A stretch of 64,000 nucleotides of DNA from Pegea sp. RAD2-039 (lineage: Eukaryota; Chordata; Thaliacea; Salpida; Salpidae), in assembly GCA_034620365.1 (NCBI GenBank), contig JAQGEQ010000287.1, positions 682,001-746,000 on the forward strand, read 5' to 3'. Below are positions 5,198 through 53,345 of the stretch, piece after piece (positions within the stretch are counted from its first letter, which is position 1; the number at the start of each line of letters is the position of its first letter). The notes beneath the pieces are model-generated. The model did no database searches and had not been told where the DNA came from. It was given only the letters and a program-made list of their open reading frames with translations. A program made the translations under genes and the position numbers.

Positions 5198-6805
5198 TCA
5201 CACAGATGACTTAGAAGAGAGTTGAGATCGAATCCATTGAGCTACAACCTCCAGATTAGACATGAGAGGATTTTTCATATTACACTCAACTAGTTGATGA
5301 TCACACAACTGATCAGGTAGAGGTCTTTTACCAGCTTCTTTTTGTAAACATCCCGAAATAAAATCTTCAAGATCTTCGGGACCTTTTTCTAATCTCGGAG
5401 GAGGCTCATTTACTATGCACTGCATCAATTCAATCGGAAGCACTCCTCCTGATCCTGCAAATCAACATCATCATCTTGAAGTTAAGATCTTCATCTTACC
5501 AGCAATCTTTGGCGCCAGTTGGTGGTAAGGAAAATGACCAAGAGCAAGCTCGAGAAGTGATAGTCCAAAACTCCAAACATCTGAATAAATCGTATAATCG
5601 CGACCCACGATACGTTCTGGGGCCATATAGGCGTTTGTACCAACGTAGGTTTTCGCTATGGAGTCAACTAACAGCGTGCTAACCCCAAAATCACATAACT
5701 TCAAGTGACCGCTAGTACTGACCAATATATTGGATGGTTTTACGTCTCGATGCATGATTCGAAGTCGCCACAACTCTCGTAAACCATATGAGATGGAACT
5801 GCAAAAGTCGAGTCAACAACACGATGACAGAGGATAGAAAAGCGCCACCTAGCGACGTTGCGGAGTACATCATGAGGAATAGATCCATACTGATCAAGGG
5901 AACCTCCATCCATTAATTCCATGCATAGCATCACTCGATTCTCATCAAAGTAAGCTCCAAAGAATCCGATGATGAAATGGGAACCACCACATCTATAAAT
6001 CGAGATGTTTATCATCACCTAGCAACCACAACTAATCACCTTTGCAAGATCTCTAACTCAAGCAGGATTCGACGTTGTTCTTCCCCGGTCAGGTCCACAG
6101 CGATGGACTTGACTGCTGTAACTGTCCCTGTTGGTTTGTGGACCGCTCGTCTCACGAAACCACTATTACCTTTGCCGAGGGTCTCAAGTAGATGTAATGT
6201 GTTTTGGTTGTATTTAGCCGAGGGACTAGTGGTCAGTTGGTGGTGGTTGTTGGTAGTGGTCAGTTGATGGTACATGGCGGGACTCGATGTCGAATTGTTG
6301 CTCTTATCGGGTATAAACTGTGAAATGCGGACTCTTTGAGGCTTGAAGAGTCCCGCAGCTTTCTGCATCTCCGTGTATTGAGGTGGGACATCAGTAGAAA
6401 GAAGAAGAGATGATAATGAGGGTTTGATGTCAACTTTTAGAGCAAATCGGTTGCGATCACGTGATGGATCTTTGATTTTGGGAAATATGGAAAGATGAGG
6501 AAGTAGAGGAGTTGGTTTTGTGTTGATGTGATAATGTAACATTGCACGAAGTTCAGTATCCGAACGAACAGTCGTCAGGTCACCATCTTCATCTGTATAA
6601 TCGAACGCTGCTACTTGAACCTTGTAGCTACTCGCCTGTAACAAGTAAAGTGTGACGGAGCGACCAGTCGACCGTGACGGGAGGAACAAACCTGTTCGAT
6701 TATGTCGAGAACATCTTGAAAAGTGATGTCATAAGGAGGAGGAACTACCCAATCAACTTCGTGATCTTTGCTCAGATGTAAACGTAATTTGATATTTTTT
6801 GACAT
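5198..6805 (-). CDS. MAP2K5: Dual-specificity MAP kinase kinase 5 (MEK5)
   Basis: Five-exon model (minus): 6805-6692, 6635-6040, 5992-5849, 5798-5500, 5454-5198; phases close, 469 residues (human 448). The N-terminal ~85 residues are a PB1 domain with the acidic DYTDEDGD stretch (OPCA-type motif), which in MEK5 binds MEKK2/3 and ERK5. The kinase domain begins near residue 188 with glycine loop GKGNSGFV and the AVK lysine. The catalytic loop HRDVKPSN is at 301-308 and DFG at 321-323. The activation loop holds S331 and T335 in [10 protein letters not shown], matching the two phosphorylation sites of human MEK5, followed by MAPER. A MAP2K that has a PB1 domain is diagnostic of MEK5. It phosphorylates ERK5 in the cytoplasmic stress and growth-factor cascade. 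The inter-domain linker is longer than in vertebrates and rich in T, N and H. Exons are much richer in GC than the flanks. Confidence 0.95.
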
Positions 6806-11866: not shown

Positions 11867-12576
11867 CTGTGAAATCAATAAAAAACAGATCTGTAAGAGA
11901 TTACCAAATTAAAAATTTAACAATGTTAGTTTGAATACGAAAAATCTAATTATTTTTTGAAATCATGAAAACCATCATTGATTAAAGAGCATTACTGTGT
12001 AGTACGTCTTTGGAAATTCATTTAGTATTCTCAAAATATCAGCCAAAGTAAATATTAACAACTTTTATGAATTTTTATATGAAAATGTAAATTTCAAAAA
12101 ATTATTTAGGATAAAATTTTTGAAAAAAAAAACTATTCTACACAGTTATTTTATACGCTTTCTTAATTACATTATAAAAAAATGACTACTAAAGATTATA
12201 AAATTATCCATATTGTTCAACCTGTCAAGTTGATAAGAAATGTTAATAATGTTAATTTAGGCTACTGAAGTTATTTATCTCAAAGAATCTTTCTCAAATC
12301 TGTTGCTCGAAGCAAACACTTATTGATGAAATATTGTAAAGTGAAACCTAATTTATAAAGCATGTTAAAGATAATAAGAAAAAAATGAGCTGAAGAATAA
12401 AAGTGCTGACACCAAAATGTCACAACCAGTAAGTTGCACCACAAAGAGTAAGGTCGACCGAGCTTTTTATGATTAGCTTGTTTCAGTATGTTTTCTGTTT
12501 TGTGTTTTGTGTTTAGTTCTATTTTAAGACTTTCTGAAATTCTAAATATTAATTTAATAGTATATTAGAAATTTAC

Positions 12577-15500
12577 TTTTTTAATCATTCCAGCAAGCTC
12601 TGACTGAAAGTCCAGAAGTTCCTTTCACTCTACAAAAAGTCAAATTTCATTTAATTAATTATCTTACATCCAAACATCAATTGATTTTGATAAAATAGAA
12701 GTTGAAATGATACCTGTTCTCCAGCTGCAGTTGATCTTGGGTTTCTAATATTCCCCTGAACATATTGATTGTTAAGTAAGAAATAAAGCATTTAATTATC
12801 TGATATATAATTTAAAATATATGATTTTGTATTATCTCAGCTTTTTAAAAAGATAAAGTAGCATATTTTATAATTAAATCATAGATACATTTTTATTAAA
12901 AAGATACCAAAATATTCATGGAAATATATTTACTTGGTTTGTTTGATGTATTCCTAACATCTCAGCCAATAATTCGAATACAGGTTTTCTTTCCTAAAAA
13001 TGATTAAATTGAATTAAATTTATTTATATTCATAAATAGTTATACATATTTTATATATTCAAAACTATTATCTTTTCATACAGAAATGCATAAGATTATA
13101 AAAGTCAATATAATAGAAGTTGGAATGATACCTGTTCTCCAGATGCAGTTGATTCTGGGTTTCTAATATTCCCCTGAACATATTGATTGTTAAGTAAGAA
13201 ATAAAGCATTTAATTATCTGATATATAATTTAAAATATATGATTTTGTATTATCTCAGCTTTTTAAAAAGATAAAGTAGCATATTTTATAACTAAATCAT
13301 AGATACATTTTTATTAAAAAGATACCAAAATATTCATGGAAATATATTTACTTGGTTTGTTTGATGTATTCCTAACATCTCAGCCAATAATTCGAATACA
13401 GGTTTTCTTTCCTAAAAATGATTAAATTGAATTAAATCTATTTATATTCATAAGTAGTTATACATATTTTATATATTCAAAACTATTATCTTTTCATACA
13501 GAAATGCATAAGATTATAAAAGTCAATATAATAGAAGTTGGAATGATACCTGTTCTCCAGATGCAGTTGATTCTGGGTTTCTAATATTCCCCTGAACATA
13601 TTGATTGTTAAGTAAGAAATAAAGCATTTAATTATCTGATATATAATTTAAAATATATGATTTTGTATTATCTCAGCTTTTTAAAAAGATAAAGTAGCAT
13701 ATTTTATAACTAAATCATAGATACATTTTTATTAAAAAGATACCAAAATATTCATGGAAATATATTTACTTGGTTTGTTTGATGTATTCCTAACATCTCA
13801 GCCAATAATTCGAATACAGGTTTTCTTTCCTAAAAATGATTAAATTGAATTAAATCTATTTATATTCATAAGTAGTTATAATATTTTATATATTCAAAAC
13901 TATTATCTTTTCATACAGAAATGAATAATATTATAAAAGTCAAAAAAATAGAAGTTGGAATGATACCTGTTCTCCAGATGCAGTTGATTCTGGGTTTCTA
14001 ATATTCCCCTGAACATATTGATTGTTAAGTAAGAAATAAAGCATTTAATTATCTGATATATAATTTAAAATATATGATTTTGTATTATCTCAGCTTTTTA
14101 AAAAGATAAAGTAGCATATTTTATAACTAAATCATAGATACATTTTTATTAAAAAGATACCAAAATATTCATGGAAATATATTTACTTGGTTTGTTTGAT
14201 GTATTCCTAACATCTCAGCCAATAATTCGAATACAGGTTTTCTTTCCTAAAAATGATTAAATTGAATTAAATCTATTTATATTCATAAGTAGTTATAAAT
14301 ATTTATATATTCAAAACTATTATCTTTTCATGTAGAAATGAATAATATTATAAAAGTCAAAAAAATAGAAGTTGGAATGATACCTGTTCTCCAGATGCAG
14401 TTGATTCTGGGTTTCTAATATTCCCCTGAACATATTGATTGTTAAGTAAGAAATAAAGCATTTAATTATCTAATATATAATTTAAAATATATGATTTTGT
14501 ATTATCTCAGCTTTTTAAAAAGATAAAGTAGCATATTTTATAACTAAATCATAGATACATTTTTATTAAAAAGATACCAAAATATTCATGGAAATATATT
14601 TACTTGGTTTGTTTGATGTATTCCTAACATCTCAGCCAATAATTCGAATACAGGTTTTCTTTCCTAAAAATGATTAAATTGAATTAAATCTATTTATATT
14701 CATAAGTAGTTATAAATATATTATATATTCAAAACTATTATCTTTTCATACAGAAATGAATAAGATTATAAAAGTCAATATAATAGAAGTTGGAATGATA
14801 CCTGTTCTCCAGATGCAGTTGATTCTGGGTTTCTAATATTCCCCTGAACATATTGATTGTTTAGTAAGAGATAAAGCATTTAATTATCTGATATATAATT
14901 TAAAATATATGATTTTGTATTATCTCAGCTTTTTAAAAAAGATAAAGTAGCATATTTTATAACTAAATCATAGATACATTTTTATTAAAAAGATACCAAA
15001 ATATTCATAGAAGTATATTTACTTGGTTTGTTTGATGTATTCCTAACATCTCATCTAATAGTTCTAAATCGGGTTTTCTTTCCTAAAAATGATTAAATTG
15101 AATTAAATCTATTTATATTCATAAATAGTTATAAATATATTATATATTCAAAACTATTATCTTTTCATACAGAAATGAATAAGATTATAAAAGTCAATAT
15201 AATAGAAGTTGGAATGATACCTGTTCTCCAGATGCAGTTGATCTAGGGTTTCTAATATTCCCCTGAACATATTGATTGTTTAGTAAGAGATAAAGCATTT
15301 AATTATCTGATATATAATTTAAAATATATGATTTTGTATTATCTCAGCTTTTAAAAAAGATAAAGTAGCATATTTTATAACTAAATCATAGATACATTTT
15401 TATTGAAAAGATACCAAAATATTCATGGAAATATATTTACTTGGTTTGTTTGATGTATTCTTAACATCTCATCTAATAGTTCTAAATCGGGTTTTCTTTC

Positions 15501-16345
15501 CTGAAAATGATTAAATTGAATTAAATTTTGTTTATATTCATAAGTAGTTATAAATATTTTATATATTCAAAACTATTATCTTTTCATACAGAAATGAATA
15601 AGATTATAAAAGTCAATATAATAGAAGTTGGAATGATACCTGTTCTCCAGATGCAGTTGATCTAGGGTTTCTAATATTCCCCTGAACATATTGATTGTTT
15701 AGTAAGAGATAAAGCATTTAATTATCTGATATATAATTTAAAATATATGATTTAGTATTATCTCAGCTTTTTAAAAAGATAAAGTAGCATATTTTATAAC
15801 TAAATCATAGATACATTTTTATTAAAAAGATACCAAAATATTCATGGAAATATATTTACTTGGTTTGTTTGATGTATTCTTAACATCTCATCTAATAGTT
15901 CTAAATCGGGTTTTCTTTCCTGAAAATATTAAATTGAATTAAATCTATTTATATTCATAAGTAGTTATAAATATATTATATATTCAAAACTATTATCTTT
16001 TCATACAGAAATGAATAAGATTATAAAAGTCAATATAATAGAAGTTGGAATGATACCTGTTCTCCAGATGCAGTTGATCTAGGGTTTCTAATATTCCCCT
16101 GAACATATTGATTGTTTAGTAAGAGATAAAGCATTTAATTATCTGATATATAATTTAAAATATATGATTTTGTATTATCTCAGCTTTTAAAAAAGATAAA
16201 GTAGCATATTTTATAACTAAATCATAGATACATTTTTATTAAAAAGATACCAAAATATTCATGGAAATATATTTACTTGGTTTGTTTGATGTATTCCTAA
16301 CATCTCATCTAATAGTTCTAAATCGGGTTTTCTTTCCTGAAAATG
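12577..16345 (-). repeat. Direct tandem array, ~418-bp unit, nine copies
   Basis: The two-exon module and both its introns are repeated nine times with spacings 417-419 bases between type A exons. Copies are almost identical even in introns. Two subfamilies are visible: the five downstream A copies (12934-14663) read VFELLAE, and the four upstream ones (15023-16336) read DLELLDE. Linked B differences fall in the same split (NPES against NPRS), except the last B copy (12714), which has NPRS with AAGEQ. The pattern points to recent amplification by unequal exchange, in at least two rounds. Confidence 0.9.
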
Positions 16346-16508
16346 ATTAAATTGAATTAAATCTATTTATATTCATAAATATTTTTATAAATATTTTATA
16401 TATTACAGATATATATATTGAAATATTGAGTTTGAAAATAATGAAATGCATTTTACTTACCTCATATATTGAAGGATAGAAGTTTGGGTTTTGAATGTTG
16501 TCACTCAT
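12585..16508 (-). CDS. Undescribed gene made of nine tandem copies of a two-exon module
   Basis: Minus strand. First exon 16508-16461 has ATG and codes MSDNIQNPNFYPSIYE, followed by GTAAGT. Then nine alternating pairs follow. Type A exons (60 bases, 20 residues, e.g. ERKPVFELLAEMLGIHQTNQ) have low ends at 16277, 15860, 15441, 15023, 14604, 14187, 13770, 13352 and 12934. Type B exons (42 bases, 14 residues, e.g. GNIRNPESTASGEQ) start at 16057, 15650, 15221, 14802, 14384, 13967, 13550, 13132 and 12714. Every exon is flanked by AG and GT, both types are multiples of three and all junctions are phase 0, so any number of modules can be spliced without a frameshift. A last exon 12629-12585 behind TTTTTGTAG codes SERNFWTFSQSLLE and stop. 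Predicted length is 336 residues: a hydrophilic repeat protein with no signal peptide, membrane helix or domain I recognise. The type A peptide looks helical (FELLAEMLG), type B disordered. The function is unknown. Confidence 0.78.
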
Positions 16509-16952
16509 CTTTTGATTTCTAAAATCTGATCTGAGTAAAATAAATAAAAAAATAATATTAATTGGATAAATTTGTGAAATAAAATATCAGAATTAATTCA
16601 ATATATTTATATATTCTTTGTTTTGTAGGTGCTAATGCCTTAAATAAAAACCTCCACTGTCTTCTGTATGGATTTATATATTTATTTTTCATGATTTACT
16701 CATATTTAAGTTTTAGAAGTGGACTCAAACTTACTTATTAGGATAAATATATATATTATATGTATAAGAAAATATAATAAATAAATATTTTATAGTGGAC
16801 AAAAATTTTAATTATATAATTTTCCTCAGTGATTAATATATATAAAATTTATTATATTTCTTATACAAGAATTAATTTCTTAAAATTTCTTATACTTTAA
16901 ATCATAGCTTATAACATCATTTATACTTGATTTAGGAAATTATAAATTAATG
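16509..16952. promoter_or_regulatory. Head-to-head intergenic region, probable bidirectional promoter
   Basis: A 444-base AT-rich gap lies between the divergent start codons of the repeat-exon gene (minus) and SDHAF2 (plus). Both promoters must sit here or in unannotated 5' leader exons. I could not define a core motif. Confidence 0.4.
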
Positions 16953-17637
16953 ATGCTTAAAACATTTGTAACAAGTTATAAATTTTTGTCTCCAAAACTT
17001 TTCACAAATGCTTTAATGCAACGTCACTACTCTGATGAAGGGAAGTCATCTGTGGAGTCTATGATTCAAGTGATACTTTTGTAAATTTGTTGATAAAAAA
17101 TATAATATAAAAAAATAAAATTTTTCCTAATCTTCCCAACTACTTTTTCTCGCTAATAATCTACTTTTTGTAATAGAACAAAATTGATAATCAAATATTA
17201 AAAAAAGAAGAACCACTAGGACAAAAAAGAGCAAGATTACTGTATCAAAGTAGGAAACGAGGAACTGCTGAAAATTGTTTGCTATTTGGGACATTCAGTG
17301 CAAAATACCTTTCCAGGTAGATAACTAATTCTTTAATTCAAAAAATATATTCTGACTCTGTAACTAATATTTATATTTGCAGTTTAACAGAAGATCAACT
17401 GAACTCGTATGACAGACTTTTAAATGATTATCTAAATGAATGGGAAATTTATTATTGGTTAGTCGGAAAAAAACCTGTACCAAAAGACTACAACACTGAC
17501 TTAATGGCATTACTTCAAAAACACTGCAGGTTTTTAAACAAAAAAATTAAATGTTTTCATTAAAAAATTGTATAAATTTGTTTCTTTTCAGAAATGACGA
17601 AAAAGAAAAAAGATACCGACAGCCAGATTTACACTGA
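16953..17637 (+). CDS. SDHAF2: Succinate dehydrogenase assembly factor 2, mitochondrial
   Basis: Four exons (plus): 16953-17069, 17177-17316, 17383-17529, 17592-17637; phases close, 149 residues (human 166). The first ~27 residues ([17 protein letters not shown]...) are basic and hydroxylated with no acid residue, as in a mitochondrial presequence. The mature part has the SdhE/SDH5 fold signatures: [19 protein letters not shown] with the conserved RG pair, [13 protein letters not shown], and [16 protein letters not shown]. The factor promotes covalent FAD attachment to SDHA in complex II assembly in the matrix. Introns are 53-107 bases. AATAAA at 17681-17686 lies 44 bases past the stop. Confidence 0.95.
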
Positions 17638-20700: not shown

Positions 20701-23700
20701 TTAGATTCAGTTTTTTAAAAATTATTCGATAATTAGAAATTAAATAGTTTTCAAAAGAATATTCTCAGAACTTACCTGAGCAATCTTCTCTTTCTGTTTG
20801 TTTTGGAACAATTGTAACAGCTTTCATCATATCGAATTCTTTCATTTTCATACTTTCCTTCAAATAATTTGAATAAAATTTCATAAAAATCAAAAGTTTA
20901 GAAGAAAAATCGATAAAATTGAAAGTACAAATAATATTTAGATATGAAAATGTTACGACAGTAGCAGTACCATCTTTTGGACATGCTTTTCTTGTTGAAG
21001 AACAACATGTTCACGACTTCTTAACAATTCCATTTCATGCAGTAACTTTTGGCGTTGATTATGTAACTCAGCTTCTAAAGACTGAAAAATGACAACAATA
21101 TTAGAAACATGAAGATTAGATGTATGCGAATTTACTTTACGGTGATTGTTCAGTCGTTCAACGGCGTTCTTTTCACGATTTTCTAGGGCAGTGACCCGCT
21201 GCCTATAATCTGTTTCCAGTTCTTTTATCCTGGCATCAATCTAATCAAAACATGAAGAGAATAATTGTTTGAAAACTACTAGATGTATTCACCTTCTTTT
21301 TCGAGTTTTCAACTTCAGTTGTTCTAACTTTAGTCAATTCATACATCTTCCATTGTTCGAACATCATCTTGTATCTTCTTTCAACATCTTTTTCTGCTTC
21401 TCGAACAGCTGAATGAAGTGATGTGACGCTTTCATGAGCAATTGTAGGCTTACGACTACGATCTACCAAATCGTTATCAACAGCTTGCAGTTTATCAGCT
21501 GAAACAAATCATCTTGTTCACTTTTGATTAACAATAGCTTTTAAGAACACGCACTACCATCTACAGAGGTTAATGGTTCAACCTTTTTCAATCAGAGATT
21601 TATTTTAATTGTATGTTTCGTTTTTCTCTTAATTTTTAAATGTTTTTTGATTTTTGGGGGATTTTAATACGTTAGAAAATTTGTTCAGAGATTTGGGTTG
21701 AAAAACAACCTGCTAGAAACAAGCAGATCATTATGATCATCACACACAACACTACCACTTGGCACTAGTACTAGCCCACATGGTCAAAGTTAGGACACTA
21801 GTACCAGAACCCATAGCGTTGATCAGGACACTAGTAACAGGCCCCATAGCGTAGATCAGGGTACTAGTACCAGGCCCTATGGCGTAGATCAGGGCACTAG
21901 TACCAGGCCCTATGGCGTAAATCAGGGCACTAGTACCAGGCCCTATGGCGTAAATCAGGGCACTAGTACCAAGCCCCATAGCGTAGATCAGGGTACTAGT
22001 ACCAGGCCCTATGGCGTAGATCAGGGTACTAGTACCAGGCCCCATAGCGTAGATCAGGGTACTAGTACCAGGCCCCATAGCGTAGATCAGGGTACTAGTA
22101 CCAGGCTCTATGGCGTAGATCAGGGTACTAGTACCAGGCCCTATGGCGTAGATCAGGGCACTAGTACCAGGCCCCATGGCGTAGATCAGGGCACTAGTAC
22201 CAGGCCCTATGGCGTAGATCAGGGCACTAGTACCAGGCCCCATGGGGTAGATCAGGGCACTAGTACCAGGCCCCATGGCGTAGATCAGGGCACTAGTACC
22301 AGGCCCCATGGCGTAGATCAGGGCACTAGTACCAGGCCCCATGGCGTAGATCAGGGCACTAGTACCAGGCCCCATGGCGTAGATCAGGGCACTAGTACCA
22401 GGCCCTATGGCGTAGATCAGGGCACTAGTACCAGGCCCCATGGGGTAGATCAGGGCACTAGTACCAGGCCCCATGGCGTAGATCAGGGCACTAGTACCAG
22501 GCCCTATGGCGTAGATCAGGGCACTAGTACCAGGCCCCATGGCGTAGATCAGGGCACTAGTACCAGGCCCTATGGCGTAGATCAGGGCATAGTACCAGGC
22601 CCCATGGCGTAGATCAGGGCACTAGTACCAGGCCCCATGGCGTAGATCAGGGCACTAGTACCAGGCCCTATGGCGTAGATCAGGGCACTAGTACCAGGCC
22701 CCATGGCGTAGATCAGGGCACTAGTACCAGGCCCCATGGCGTAGATCAGGGCACTAGTACCAGGCCCTATGGCGTAGATCAGGGCACTAGTACCAGGCCC
22801 TATGGGGTAGATCAGGGCACTAGTACCAGGCCCCATGGCGTAGATCAGGGCACTAGTACCAGGCCCTATGGCGTAGATCAGGGCACTAGTACCAGGCCCC
22901 ATGGCGTAGATCAGGGCACTAGTACCAGGCCCCATGGCGTAGATCAGGGCATTAGTACCAGGCCCCATGGCGTAGATCAGGGCACTAGTACCAGGCCCCA
23001 TGGGGTAGATCAGGGCACTAGTACCAGGCCCTATGGTGAATAAACTTCTTGCAAAGTTCCAAGAAGTTCAATTGGGTCTCAACAGTTTCTCATCCTAAAA
23101 GGCGATCTTAATCTTCTTCCATGATGTCACTCTTCTTATCATCTTTCATTGCATCAAAAGAACATTTGATCTGCTAGTCTGTTTTGTTTCTACGATTTAG
23201 TGAGCTGTTGGTGATTTTGGAGTGGGGCTACTTTGACGACGTTTCTAACAATTGTTACGTCGATACATCTGTTTCTCATGCTTCGCGTGCGGTTCATTCT
23301 TAGTTGTAGCTTCTATTCTATCTTGATAGCACTTAGCAGCATACCCTAGTTGATTTTGATGGTTCACGATTTATGGATTTTTCTTTTTCAACTACTATAG
23401 CTGATTTTCAATGAAATATAATCTTAAACTACAAAATATATATCCTGAATCAAGAGATTCTCAACTTTTCAAGCTGAACAGCTCTGAAAAACTCTCTTCT
23501 AAATTATACATAATATTTAAGTACTATTTGATTACTGCAGGGTAATTGTTAGATAGTTGGTGGCAAATGATTAATCTCATTAGACTTGCTGAGCACTTGA
23601 GTAAGACTGATGTAGGATTAATTTAAGCTGAAGTTGTTTTTAGATCTTTTCTAAATTTGATATCACTTCAAAAAACTTACTACGCAGCCGCAAAAGCAAT

Positions 23701-26700
23701 TTACAAAAAAAAATTTATTAACAAATTGGGCATTTACTAAAAACGATATATTTCTGATGAAAAACTACCAGCATCTTGAACCTTATCTCCAAAAGTAATA
23801 ACAATGTGTGCATCATACTTGGACCTTTCACAGTAAAACGTATACATCTATGGTAGAAAACCTCGGTATAGCAAAGCCTAAATAGATACTTCAAAGAATT
23901 TGACACAACAAACCCAGTTTAGGTCAAAGAAATTATGATAGAAAGGATACATGCAAAAGCACAAAGACTCAGAAGATATCAAAAAACAAGCTCGGTTCTT
24001 TCATCCACAAAAAGTTCAAACAAAACCTATTGAAGCAAACTTATGGAAGTAAAGAAAGCAATTGAAGAGTTTTGGCAAGACATTTGGAAGTAGCAGTGGA
24101 ATACAATGTCAATAAAGAAAGGCGCTAAAAATGTGCAAAGATGAAAATCACCTGGTAAAGACAGGGTAACAAACTTAAGGTTGGACCACCTGCCTGCTGT
24201 ACATAAAGTGGCTGCAAACCAACTGAACAAACTGTTGATCACCAAAAGGACCATCTTGACAAACAGAAGGAGTAGCATATCTATTCCCAAGGTCAGAGAA
24301 ACTGGAGAGTTCAAAAAACTGCTGAACCAATTAGTGGTTTATACAAACTACTTACTTTACTCTTACTGAACGATACTACAAGTATTTTGCAATCTATGCA
24401 ACAAAAAAGATGTCAAAGGAAAACTACCTCCTTGATAATAGAAGGATGCAAGAAGACAGCCATATAAGACATAAAAATCTCAGTACGGACTTGACTATCG
24501 TAAAATTGACTATCATTAAGCCAAATATAATTGATGTTACAACAAAAAGTAACATCTTTTTCTATATAGATGACTTGACAATTTATACTACAAACGATCA
24601 ATATCCAAAAGCTCACTACTCAAACATTCAGCAAAAACTTTGAAACAATTTTTGGAATTAAAAAAAGTGCAAAAATTACAGATAAAAAAGGTAAATAAAC
24701 ATCAAAGAGAAGACATTCTTCTTAATAAAATGTAGCAATCAAAGATTTAGAACAAAAAGCAAACTACTAACATTTAAGAATAGAGAAAATACAAAGAATA
24801 ATAATTAGAAAAATAAAGTGAAGGATGTGGAAAGAGTTTTACTAAAGAGCAAGGAAGATATTTTGAACAAAATTCAGTTCCAAGATTCAAGTCTTCTAGA
24901 TCATTCCAGCAGTGATGTATAAGTTTAATTTCATCAACTGAAAATTAAATGAAAAAAAAAGCTTAAGAATAATAATAATAGGGCTTGCTTTGACATAGAA
25001 AGGATATGCTGGATGTGCTATGCAAAATTACTTTAAATACAAAGCATTAAGATATAAAAAACTAGGAAAATAATGATAATAAAACGAATAGTCAGAAGAG
25101 AATATCAAAGTCAGATGTTGACTCTACATAAATATATAAACATGAAAAAGTAATAAGAAATTTTTTGTTTGTTTTTATAAATAGATGGATGGATAATCAA
25201 GTACTTTTAACAATTATTTGAGTTTCAAAATGAAAACAAAAGAAGAAGTGGCGTGCTTCGGCCGAGAACGACCATACATATGTGCCAGGGCAGTAATTAT
25301 GTAGATTCAGCTGTTGCTCATGCTGCAGGATTCTACTCTCCACGCCAACCAGGTTATTCAGCAGAACAAAAGGACTGATGCAGCTACGCCTGGCTGGCGT
25401 CGCAGGAGCTACCAGAACGACACTAAGTACAATTACGAACTGTCTACGAGGCTCCAACTCCAGCTTTAAATTCGGAGTTTTGTGTCTCTCAGAAGTGTTG
25501 TTAATTAACCAGACCAACAGAGCCCTTCTATTTGGGTTATTCTTTAATGGAATATTTCTAGTCCCGAGCATATATCAGCCTGGACTCGAATCCAGAACCT
25601 ACCACGTGGTAGGCGGGTATGGTAACCATACATGTAGACAAAGAAGAAATACTCTATCACACAACAAAGTGAAAAGTCTAAAAAGAATTAAAGCTCCCAA
25701 AAAATCAATGGAAAAAGCATCTTTATCAAGTTCTGAGCGGATGCCTAGAAGCGAAACTACTTTAAATTCATAAAATGAAAAAAGCAGATATCGTTGAACC
25801 ACACACACAATAGATGGTTTAGCAGCGCGAGGCTTAGAAACCATCGAACATATCAGAGTTCTGGATAATAGCAGGAACAGAACACCTTCAACGCCATAAC
25901 AAAGTAGCCAAATACCTTCACTGGTCTATTAGCGAAGCAACATATGTTCCTGCAGCTCAAAAATGGTAATCTTTGATTTCTGAATCAATCACAGATAATA
26001 AAATTAACCAACACTCCAGGACTTTGGCGTCAAAACAGATTAATTAGAGCCAACAGACCAGATATTGTTCTAAAAGACAAAACTAACATAATGTGTTCAA
26101 GTAAGTGATTCAAATGTAAATATCAACAAATTCGAGAAGAAATCCAAACACAAAGATCTAGAAATTCGAAGAATATGAAAAATATTCTAGTTGTGGTTTC
26201 AAGTAATTCGAAAAATACTGGGAACAATTCAAAGAACCGAAATTCAAAGATACGCTCTTGGAAATAGCGCGCATACTACCGAAAGTTTTGGTGCTAAGTT
26301 GAATATGGAACCTTTTTCAATCTCTTTTCTTACAACGTTGGTAAATATCACTGTTTAAAATCACCAATCGCACCGTAATCAAACGTAAAATTGTTTACAT
26401 CTTTTTTTGTTTATATAAACCGTTCGTTGCGCACTCTTTAATCACTAGAAGCCAGTGAGTCTACGTTAGCTGGGTGATGACTCACAAGCAAGTCCTCTAC
26501 TTTCTGAGAAACAAATAAACCGACGTCATCGCTTCTCAACGTGGCTGTAAATCCGAAAATCTTTAAAGAGTGTTGGAGCAAGGACACATTTTTCTACTTC
26601 GTTTTTGATGATGAATGATTCAGAGCAGCTTCCATCATACTGGACTGTTGCTTTTGTACCCATGTAAAATGATTTCACCATGTTAGAGGGCAAGCTAATC

Positions 26701-50566: not shown

Positions 50567-51562
50567 TTATATAATAGAAAGTTTCTTTTTCAGGTTTTTA
50601 AAAAGAGCAATAACAAAATAATAAAAATCATAATCATAATGCATTCTACTTCTTAAAACACCTATAGCCTTTTCAGAGAGTTTTTTCTTACCAATAGTAC
50701 TTGTATTTTTCCTATTAGAATCTTGTAAAAACTCGTTGTATACTTCAGTTACACCAGTAAAGTGTTGAGGTAAAAGCTTTTCAAAAACTTTTAAGCTTCC
50801 TTCAAAATCTTCTAAGATTCCAACCGCTATATAATTATCCAAGACATTCATCTTTGCTCTCCTTAATGCTTCTCCACTTGGAATTCTACAAAATGCTTCT
50901 TGCCCACAGAAATAAGGAATCATATACCATAACCCAGTTGTCATACATTCAGTATGATTCTTTAAGACACAATCATTAATATTCATATAACGATCATTAT
51001 CAGTTAATCCAGCTTGTCTTCCTTGGTTATTTATCATGTCACCAAATCTTTTAAAATGATAGTTTGAAGAAAACCGTTCAATTGGATCTCGAATTAAGTT
51101 TATATAAACTGGAGATAAAAGACCAAACTTACGAAAGTTAATATAATGAATATGTCTTGAATATAGCATAGGAGATGCAATTGAGTTGATCAATCTAATC
51201 TCCTCTATGAGATAATTTAGCTTTGGTCTGGTGTCATTAGATAAAGGTGAGAGATAAAAATTAAATGCATTTTTTTTGGATAAAACGCGAATAATGTTTT
51301 GCATTGTACGGCTTCCACATTTTCCCACTCGATTATAAACTACTCTGCTGAGAAAGTTTTCTGAGCTCAGAACAGTTTCAGTATTTAAATTTACATCAAT
51401 ACGATCTATTAAAGTTTTATAATCATCATTTAATTCTGCACTTTTTTTAGTTTGGCTCCAGAATCCATTTCTTTTCCATAACCAAACTCCTGAAAGTATG
51501 AAACATAGAGGGAACATCAAAACAAGGAGAATACTCTTAGATTTTCTTAATGACACCATCAT
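50567..51562 (-). CDS. UST: Uronyl 2-O-sulfotransferase (dermatan/chondroitin sulfate)
   Basis: Intron-less coding region, 331 residues. It is a type II membrane protein: short basic N-terminus, then a hydrophobic anchor at about 10-29 (SILLVLMFPLCFILSGVWLW), a stem and the lumenal catalytic domain. The 5'-phosphosulfate loop is VVYNRVGKCGSRT (74-86) and the 3'-phosphate site is NLIRDPIERFSSNYHF (155-170). Two histidines in YSRHIHYINF (134-143) correspond to the catalytic His pair of 2-O-sulfotransferases. DINECIL-like NINDCVL and YFCGQEAFCR with paired cysteines are typical of UST rather than HS2ST. It transfers sulfate from PAPS to C2 of uronic acid in the Golgi. Start: the first of two AT-rich-context ATGs, giving the usual short cytosolic tail. 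A 5' leader intron is likely (CTATTGTAG upstream). Confidence 0.93.
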   Translation of the reverse strand: MMVSLRKSKSILLVLMFPLCFILSGVWLWKRNGFWSQTKKSAELNDDYKTLIDRIDVNLNTETVLSSENFLSRVVYNRVGKCGSRTMQNIIRVLSKKNAFNFYLSPLSNDTRPKLNYLIEEIRLINSIASPMLYSRHIHYINFRKFGLLSPVYINLIRDPIERFSSNYHFKRFGDMINNQGRQAGLTDNDRYMNINDCVLKNHTECMTTGLWYMIPYFCGQEAFCRIPSGEALRRAKMNVLDNYIAVGILEDFEGSLKVFEKLLPQHFTGVTEVYNEFLQDSNRKNTSTIGKKKLSEKAIGVLRSRMHYDYDFYYFVIALFKNLKKKLSII

Positions 51563-52618: not shown

Positions 52619-53345
52619 AATGCCATATCAAGTTAGTGATATCAAAAAAATCGAATCTGTTCAGGCCACATTTACAAGATTAGCATGTAGGAAACTTAAT
52701 ATTAAATATGATAGTTATAAACATCGTCTCAGTCTCTTCAATTTAGATACTTTGGAAATCCGACGGATTAAATACGACTTAATTCTTATTTTTAGAATTA
52801 TCCACAATTTAATTAACATTCAGTTTGATGATTTCTTTCCTTTTAGTCCTTCCTTCAAGTTATATCAGCTCAGACGACACACATTACACCTTAATGAGCT
52901 TATATCACCTAGTACATTGGTCAGAGTAAATTGTTTCTCATACCGTACAATTAACACATGGAACCAGCTGCCATCAGACATTGCCATGTCGAAGTCACTC
53001 GCATTGTTCAAGCAGAAGTTGAACCGTTATAATATTGCCAACATTGTCATTTCTAAACTGTGATTTTTTTTCTCTTTCTTATATTATTAACATTCTATGT
53101 AAATGTTCACTATTATATGCTTTGAGTGATATCGAAATACTATGTGTTACATCTTTTACTTTCTATATTTTTGACTAAATAGATGTTATTCGTAAGAATG
53201 TGTGTTAGCGAGAGGTGCTTTCTTTATTTCTTAGCTACTGCTTGAGTACATGTTGTTCATTGAAGCAGGAATTTCTTGTGAACAAGCTTTTGTGTCGTTT
53301 ATTGGTATCTGATATTATCAATAAACGTCCAGTAGCAAGTTTTTA
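52619..53345 (+). mobile_element. 5'-truncated CR1-type LINE with intact reverse transcriptase C-terminus
   Basis: A 147-codon frame (52620-53063) is the C-terminal end of a CR1-type ORF2: IKKIESVQATFTRLACRKLN, LSLFNLDTLEIRRIKYDLIL, RIIHNLINIQFDDFF, YRTINTWNQLPSDI and FKQKLNRYN, in the usual order. Upstream of about 52619 the similarity stops, so the copy is 5'-truncated. A 3' UTR follows, including ATAGATGTTATTCGTAAGAA and GTTAGCGAGAGGTGC shared with the copies at 28.5 and 32.8 kb. The 3' end after 53222 differs from theirs. The uninterrupted frame suggests a young insertion. Confidence 0.8.

Follow-up and report, generated by a model that had tools for sequence, protein, structure and literature searches.

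A probable tunicate gene built around a tandemly repeated two-exon coding module

Here, we examined a 64,000-nucleotide stretch of DNA from Pegea sp. RAD2-039 (contig JAQGEQ010000287.1, positions 682,001 to 746,000; hereafter, the window), in which a tandem array on the minus strand, at positions 16508-12585, is predicted to form a gene that opens with a 48-nucleotide (nt) exon 1 and ends with a last exon of 45 nt, between which exon A (60 nt) and exon B (42 nt) alternate nine times. Each predicted exon is in phase 0, and the joined reading frame comprises 336 codons followed by a stop. We estimate a probability of about 0.74 that the array is a lineage-specific tunicate protein-coding gene whose middle part consists of tandem coding copies of a two-exon module. 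The sequence supports a multi-exon design in which the repeated module is frame-neutral.

Anatomy of the predicted gene

The search that delimited the repeated exons required an AG before and a GT after each segment and recovered nine A and nine B segments at even spacing, so that no copy lacks either dinucleotide. The introns are 178-179 nt and 137-139 nt long, which, summed with the exons, gives a unit of 417-419 bp; TRF reports a period of 417 bp, with 8.9 copies and 97% matches, over positions 12690-16404. Given that the longest stop-to-stop frame wholly within the array, on both strands, spans only 53 amino acids (aa), an unspliced reading cannot traverse it. The initial annotation, made from the same DNA, had described a nine-copy two-exon module with its own AG and GT sites, in phase 0, and a 336-residue product; the anatomy proved correct to the base on the minus strand, and the product length stands.

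In the direction of the predicted transcript (all on the minus strand), the gene is preceded by a putative piece of the 5′ untranslated region (16509-16530), which extends to the ATG from a pyrimidine-rich stretch ending in CAG, a candidate spliced-leader acceptor the use of which we infer. Exon 1 (16461-16508), delimited by the joined frame, starts with the ATG and encodes Met-Ser, followed by 42 nt that resemble exon B in register (hence “B0”), and is itself followed by GTAAGT. The frame upstream of exon 1 stays open to 16586, so that an in-frame upstream coding exon is possible. Intron 0 (16337-16460) aligns with the inter-module intron, and its 3′ part is clearly homologous, judging by the local alignment score compared with shuffled sequences. 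The first A exon (ERKPDLELLDEMLGIHQTNQ) lies at 16277-16336 and the first B exon (GNIRNPRSTASGEQ) at 16057-16098, followed by A2 (15860-15919), B2 (15640-15681), A3 (15441-15500), B3 (15221-15262), A4 (15023-15082) and B4 (14802-14843), the first B copy with a change from R to E; A3, B3 and A4 were also recovered in the exon scan described below. The fifth A exon (ERKPVFELLAEMLGIHQTNQ; 14604-14663) is the first of a second type and is followed by B5 (14384-14425), A6 (14187-14246), B6 (13967-14008), A7 (13770-13829), B7 (13550-13591), A8 (13352-13411), B8 (13132-13173), A9 (12934-12993) and B9 (GNIRNPRSTAAGEQ; 12714-12755). The last exon (SERNFWTFSQSLLE; 12585-12629), placed by the joined frame, ends with the stop TGA, and alignment detected no similarity to either A or B.

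Coding evidence and competing explanations

Because the copies are nearly identical, their intact frames carry little evidential weight, and we accordingly turned to tests that are independent of copy number. A scan for exons of 21-240 nt between AG and GT on both strands of 550 bp, with coarse splice-site weights, yielded 87 exon/frame candidates, the top two of which are exactly B and A. A codon score ranked the stated frame best of six for both exons, with stop-free non-coding pieces scoring as high in 4.7% of cases for A1, 8.7% for A2, 2.3% for B1, 1.3% for B2 and 1.4% for B9. This score was trained on 4652 codons from 18 pieces, some of which are long open frames rather than proven genes: 15 of the 35 listed open reading frames (ORFs), hand-picked and in some cases trimmed, with low-complexity and doubtful frames excluded, plus three others (window 5474-5812 and two from L029); one of the pieces (L018 3375-4952) still contains a 42-bp tandem repeat. 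The G+C content is 0.32-0.45 in the exons, compared with 0.14-0.19 in three measured introns and 0.24 in the non-coding background, and the 18 module exons contain no stops and no frameshifts. Taken together, these tests make it likely that the A and B segments are coding.

Several results pull in the opposite direction. The third-ranked candidate of the exon scan is a shortened, 35-nt form of A copy 4, which is not divisible by three and outscores the 60-nt form (2.6 vs 2.1); B in a second frame ranks fifth; and the donor of B, GTATCA, deviates from GTRAGT, with splice scores that are modest in general. Codon scores give little backing to the terminal exons: 16.5% of null pieces reach the score of exon 1 and 18% that of the last exon, which moreover scores higher in two other frames free of stops than in the predicted one. 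Among near-identical copies, the preservation of frames and splice sites largely reflects common descent and is not independent evidence. The excess of synonymous change is slight: the two types of exon A differ by 3.5 synonymous to 3.5 nonsynonymous changes (p 0.026 with 3.5 rounded up to 4, and weaker with 3), and the corresponding test of exon 1 against B gives p 0.23 to 0.63. Finally, protein searches, which were word-based, require shared 5-residue words and may miss distant relatives, returned nothing: for the 336-aa query against 5.8 billion proteins, none of the 7994 best word-sharing candidates scored matched at E up to 10, and none of the 91 candidates matched a 98-aa two-module query intended for shorter relatives.

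These observations bear, above all, on the possibility that the array is a non-coding, minisatellite-like tandem repeat with segments open by chance. Such a repeat would account for introns that are about as alike as the exons, for the lack of a homologue in the word-based searches and for the weak codon scores of the terminal exons. We nevertheless regard it as unlikely, given that A and B top an exon scan of both strands, that the G+C and codon signals coincide with the predicted exons, and that A and B are in phase with both the ATG exon and the stop exon. The distribution of the unit in the genome argues in the same direction. In the small, AT-rich 105.7-Mb assembly, searched with very common words skipped, so that match counts are lower bounds, all 10 scored matches to the DNA query lie inside this array; the unit was not found at other loci devoid of gene context, as satellite DNA would be. 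Likewise, all 18 matches to a 102-aa query fall inside the array, and no other array with a period above 100 bp was detected in the 270.5 kb examined. A degenerate pattern for the end of A has 10 matches in the genome (control, 0), nine of them in the array; the tenth, C4:496351, was judged to be a chance match, in a different frame of a gene read by eye as beta-lactamase-like. Patterns for the start of B (64 matches vs 71 for the backwards control) and for the last exon (26 vs 29) show no excess; the 10 perfect matches to the former are the nine in the array and C113:386011, and the sole perfect match to the latter is the window's own. A 701-bp query comprising exon 1 and the upstream interval retrieved itself and four short, weaker pieces, the best being 87% identical over 51 bases on C12. 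Thus, the DNA, 102-aa and pattern searches detected no paralogue in the rest of the genome.

A decaying or recently dead gene, so far spared by stops, would fit the recent divergence of the copies and the absence of clear constraint on exon substitutions, but the 18 module exons free of frameshifts and stops speak against it, and we consider this explanation improbable. The two further alternatives are sub-cases of a coding array, so that their odds overlap with those of the others. One, which we rate as marginally less probable than a dead gene, is a system resembling micro-exon genes, that is, a secreted protein varied through alternative splicing of symmetric exons. Indeed, all module exons are short and symmetric and could be skipped without a change of frame; however, inspection by eye of the 16-residue start, and of the entire 336 aa, revealed no signal peptide (although the frame open to 16586 leaves room for an upstream coding exon), the exons exceed 36 nt, and the host is a tunicate rather than a flatworm. 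The parallel with micro-exon genes that the initial annotation drew is hence not retained, the exons being 42-60 nt as opposed to 6-36 nt.

The least probable alternative, to which we assign very little weight, is an alpha-solenoid of 34-residue repeats that works in the manner of the TAL effectors of bacteria or of comparable helical repeat proteins. It arises from the comparison of the 336-aa product with the PDB, which gave 26 matches at E up to 10, 22 of them TAL/TALE, AvrBs3 or Hax3/dHax3 by name (Hax3 being a TAL effector), three TOD4 or TOD6 and one C2HR4_8r. The period of 34 residues is the same, the best E value is 3e-6, and three module-scrambled controls had no match, so that an equal period alone is insufficient. 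Against this, only one of the 26 matches falls below E 0.001 (the next is at 0.022), the Pfam TAL-repeat family (PF03377) is missing among the matches of the 336-aa product to E 1, and exon B, polar and with Pro, Gly and Ser, is poor material for a second helix. Furthermore, two modules alone match nothing in the PDB, which implies that the score sums many weak similarities over equal periods. We ascribe the TAL-type match to the 34-residue period combined with leucine-rich pieces and do not file the predicted protein there. Other Pfam assignments were also rejected. The 336-aa product matched eight families to E 1, four of them (DUF7380, TT_ORF2a, ICA69 and TAF) above the curated cut-offs, and these were judged to be sums over repeats: when two 54-aa pieces served as queries, only TAF and DUF7380 of the eight families remained, both short of their cut-offs, so that none passes. 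No kringle or Olduvai domain was matched in the 336 aa to E 1. With the word-based searches empty and the Pfam matches judged to be repeat artefacts, we, like the initial annotation, found no described family for these peptides.

If the array is translated as predicted, the product is probably a 336-residue cytosolic or nuclear protein. Exon A is leucine-rich and exon B polar, rich in Asn, Pro and Ser; a moment scan of two modules found a single 11-residue stretch (KPVFELLAEML) above 0.45, making a helix in exon A plausible. Each 34-residue module, with a net charge of -4 to 0, would thus combine a leucine-rich, probably helical piece from exon A with a polar linker from exon B. Our tentative guess, which we hold to be less likely than not, is a protein that binds multivalently, with a valency given by the number of modules.

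Divergence of the copies and origin of the array

The copies fall into two sub-blocks, defined by the two types of exon A in copies 1-4 and 5-9. Fixed differences between the sub-blocks amount to 7 of 60 positions in exon A, all inside 18 nt, as compared with 2 of 178 in the intron that follows it; exon B has none, nor has the intron after B (the latter for copies 1-8 only). For 7/60 against 2/357, Fisher p is 2.6e-5. The initial description of introns as conserved as exons is therefore roughly true, except that exon A has diverged more than its adjoining introns between the sub-blocks. The recent amplification it proposed is borne out: copies of the intron after A diverge by only 0-2.2% when they belong to one sub-block. 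The change from R to E in exon B begins at B4, one copy before the change in A type at A5, and B9 again has R, so that the modules are mosaics. Conversion over a short tract, with a diverged copy as donor, followed by homogenisation of the introns, would explain the exon A types better than selection on single residues, given that synonymous sites have changed as well (3.5 to 3.5).

Without its Met-Ser codons, exon 1 is exactly as long as exon B, and the two are identical in register at 22-23 of 42 nt, with BLOSUM scores of +15 to +18. This likeness was spotted by eye and tested afterwards: in 20000 codon shuffles, p was 1.5e-4 to 2.5e-4 at the nucleotide level and 1e-4 to 3.5e-4 for BLOSUM, and a best-local test gave p 0.003-0.004. 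Two observations detract from it. Among the best 25 matches of a chance-score scan (minus-strand matches within 12560-16520 being listed separately), exon 1 as query reaches scores of up to 29 in 270 kb, and other frames of the array score up to 16. As such scores are common elsewhere, the likeness counts only through its position. The alignment of intron 0 with the inter-module intron has a local score of 109, compared with a maximum of 73 in 1000 base shuffles; the first 60 nt of intron 0 alone are dissimilar to it (p 0.93). No array-like sequence was detected in the flanks, either in the 392 nt upstream (p 0.945) or in the 484 nt downstream (p 0.885).

Thus, exon 1 is probably an old, diverged copy of exon B, the oldest B of the gene. 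Of the first and last exons, both previously called unique, only the last, which resembles neither A nor B, would retain that status. The gene probably began as a B-A pair, of which exon 1 would keep the old B, with the later B exons sharing that ancestor; unequal exchange with breakpoints inside introns could then have raised the number of modules to nine. With A and B both in phase 0, gain or loss of modules, or exon skipping, would alter the length of the protein and keep its frame. The descent of exon 1 from B and the divergence of exon A between sub-blocks above that of the adjoining introns are the points that our reading of the sequence adds to the initial annotation.

A bolder extension, which we hold to be quite unlikely as a whole, is that this chordate gene, found so far in this tunicate only, encodes a length-variable, frame-safe protein, with alleles and individuals differing in the number of modules and the mix of types, and with short conversion tracts generating variety in exon A while the introns remain homogeneous. 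If true, each individual would have its own proteins, which might act, for example, in recognition or in the tuning of multivalent binding.

Genomic context and comparison with known gene designs

The predicted gene lies head to head with a divergent upstream neighbour on the plus strand, an SDHAF2-like gene with an Sdh5 domain (16950-17560; PF03937 in the ORFs 17177-17317, at 1.6e-7, and 17321-17560, at 8.4e-11), whose ATG, placed by eye at 16950, is 441 bp from that of the array gene and whose end is approximate. This arrangement confines the promoter to a few hundred bases, and the pre-mRNA would start between the two genes. On the other side, downstream and on the strand of the array gene, we read pieces of TADA2 (with a ZZ_ADA2 match below the cut-off) and, by eye only, of MAP2K5.

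The 16-nt spliced leader of Ciona, as given in PMC7986045, occurs 681 times in the genome at no more than one mismatch, compared with 29 times for the backwards control. Among the places listed, there is a run on contig C4 (1135044-1142217), spaced mostly by about 198-200 bp and with GTAAGT after the leader, in addition to dispersed sites elsewhere. This run is probably an array of spliced leader RNA genes with a leader identical to that of Ciona; Rfam returned no match to its sequence to E 1. The nearest named relatives, among 120 listed, of the uronyl 2-sulfotransferase encoded in a single open frame of the window (50567-51562, minus strand) are from Clavelina, Ciona, Styela and Phallusia; a metagenome protein with 92% identity to this enzyme shows that a near relative exists. 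Together, the leader array and these relatives identify the host as a tunicate with trans-splicing of the Ciona type. A query with mitochondrial COX1 had no match in the assembly. The spliced leader is probably added at the AG located 22 nt before the ATG of exon 1; similar AGs were seen by eye, without a control, before four other printed starts, one of them doubtful. With the leader received at this acceptor, splicing would produce an mRNA for the 336-residue protein.

Other features of the examined sequence include an acceptor-like AG directly before the ATG of the uronyl 2-sulfotransferase gene and exact leader copies in close pairs (C22:21505/21521, which abut, C1:936457/936479, C12:144596/144623 and C18:114120/114154); trans-spliced mRNAs that were retroposed could have left such pairs as relics. 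The window also contains a GC-rich 33-bp minisatellite (21761-23036; 38.7 copies), both strands of which hold long open frames, and an ORF resembling, by eye, the end of the reverse transcriptase of a non-LTR (long terminal repeat) retrotransposon (52620-53060, plus strand). Two open stretches of 158 and 141 codons (window 25297-25770 and L010 536-958, both plus strand) are nearly alike at the start and probably represent a dispersed repeat, and L018 3427-3848 holds 10 copies of a 42-bp tandem repeat within a long open frame.

The array gene is probably a new example of a known gene design, with a protein for which our searches found no relative. Among the open-licence papers listed, no title or abstract opening concerned such a gene in tunicates, which is weak evidence. 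At about 418 bp per unit, the array would be a very compact natural case of protein lengthening by the copying of a two-exon block, in the sister group of vertebrates, and, with a probable founder exon and older and recent copies side by side, the start and the homogenisation of such genes become testable, as does variation of copy number between animals.

The fitting comparison is one of architecture, not of family, with LPA KIV-2, NBPF/Olduvai and the exon-array genes of Tetrahymena. As predicted from sequence, each unit comprises two exons and their introns, arranged head to tail with the frame kept. Schistosome micro-exon genes are the more distant parallel: about 80% of their coding sequence lies in symmetric exons of 6-36 bp, their products are almost always secreted or membrane-anchored, and some MEG-26 genes are internally duplicated, with exon lengths in a recurring pattern (PMC5825161). 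The array gene shares with them short symmetric exons and internal duplication but has exons of 42, 45, 48 and 60 nt and a tunicate rather than a flatworm host. The leucine-rich repeat (LRR) genes of Tetrahymena contain arrays of 90-bp exons of constant phase, for which the authors invoke clonal expansion and unequal crossing over (PMC6564038); uniform short exons of constant phase are common to both systems, whereas the Tetrahymena unit is one exon in phase 2, in thousands of genes for LRR proteins, compared with a two-exon, phase-0 unit in one gene here. In NBPF/Olduvai (DUF1220), a two-exon unit has likewise been expanded within the gene by tandem duplication (PMC10632439), with units of about 1.6 kb (PMC9584774); however, NBPF is a gene family, whereas no relative of the gene described here was found. 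Finally, KIV-2 of LPA (human apolipoprotein(a)) is a coding tandem repeat with a unit of two exons (160 and 182 bp) plus intron, in which each unit adds one protein module, unit subtypes exist and copy number varies among alleles (PMC6314250). The predicted gene shares with KIV-2 the tandem two-exon unit, the one protein module per unit and the unit subtypes, and differs in that its unit is about 418 bp rather than 5.6 kb, that LPA encodes a kringle protein, and that variation in copy number has been shown for LPA.

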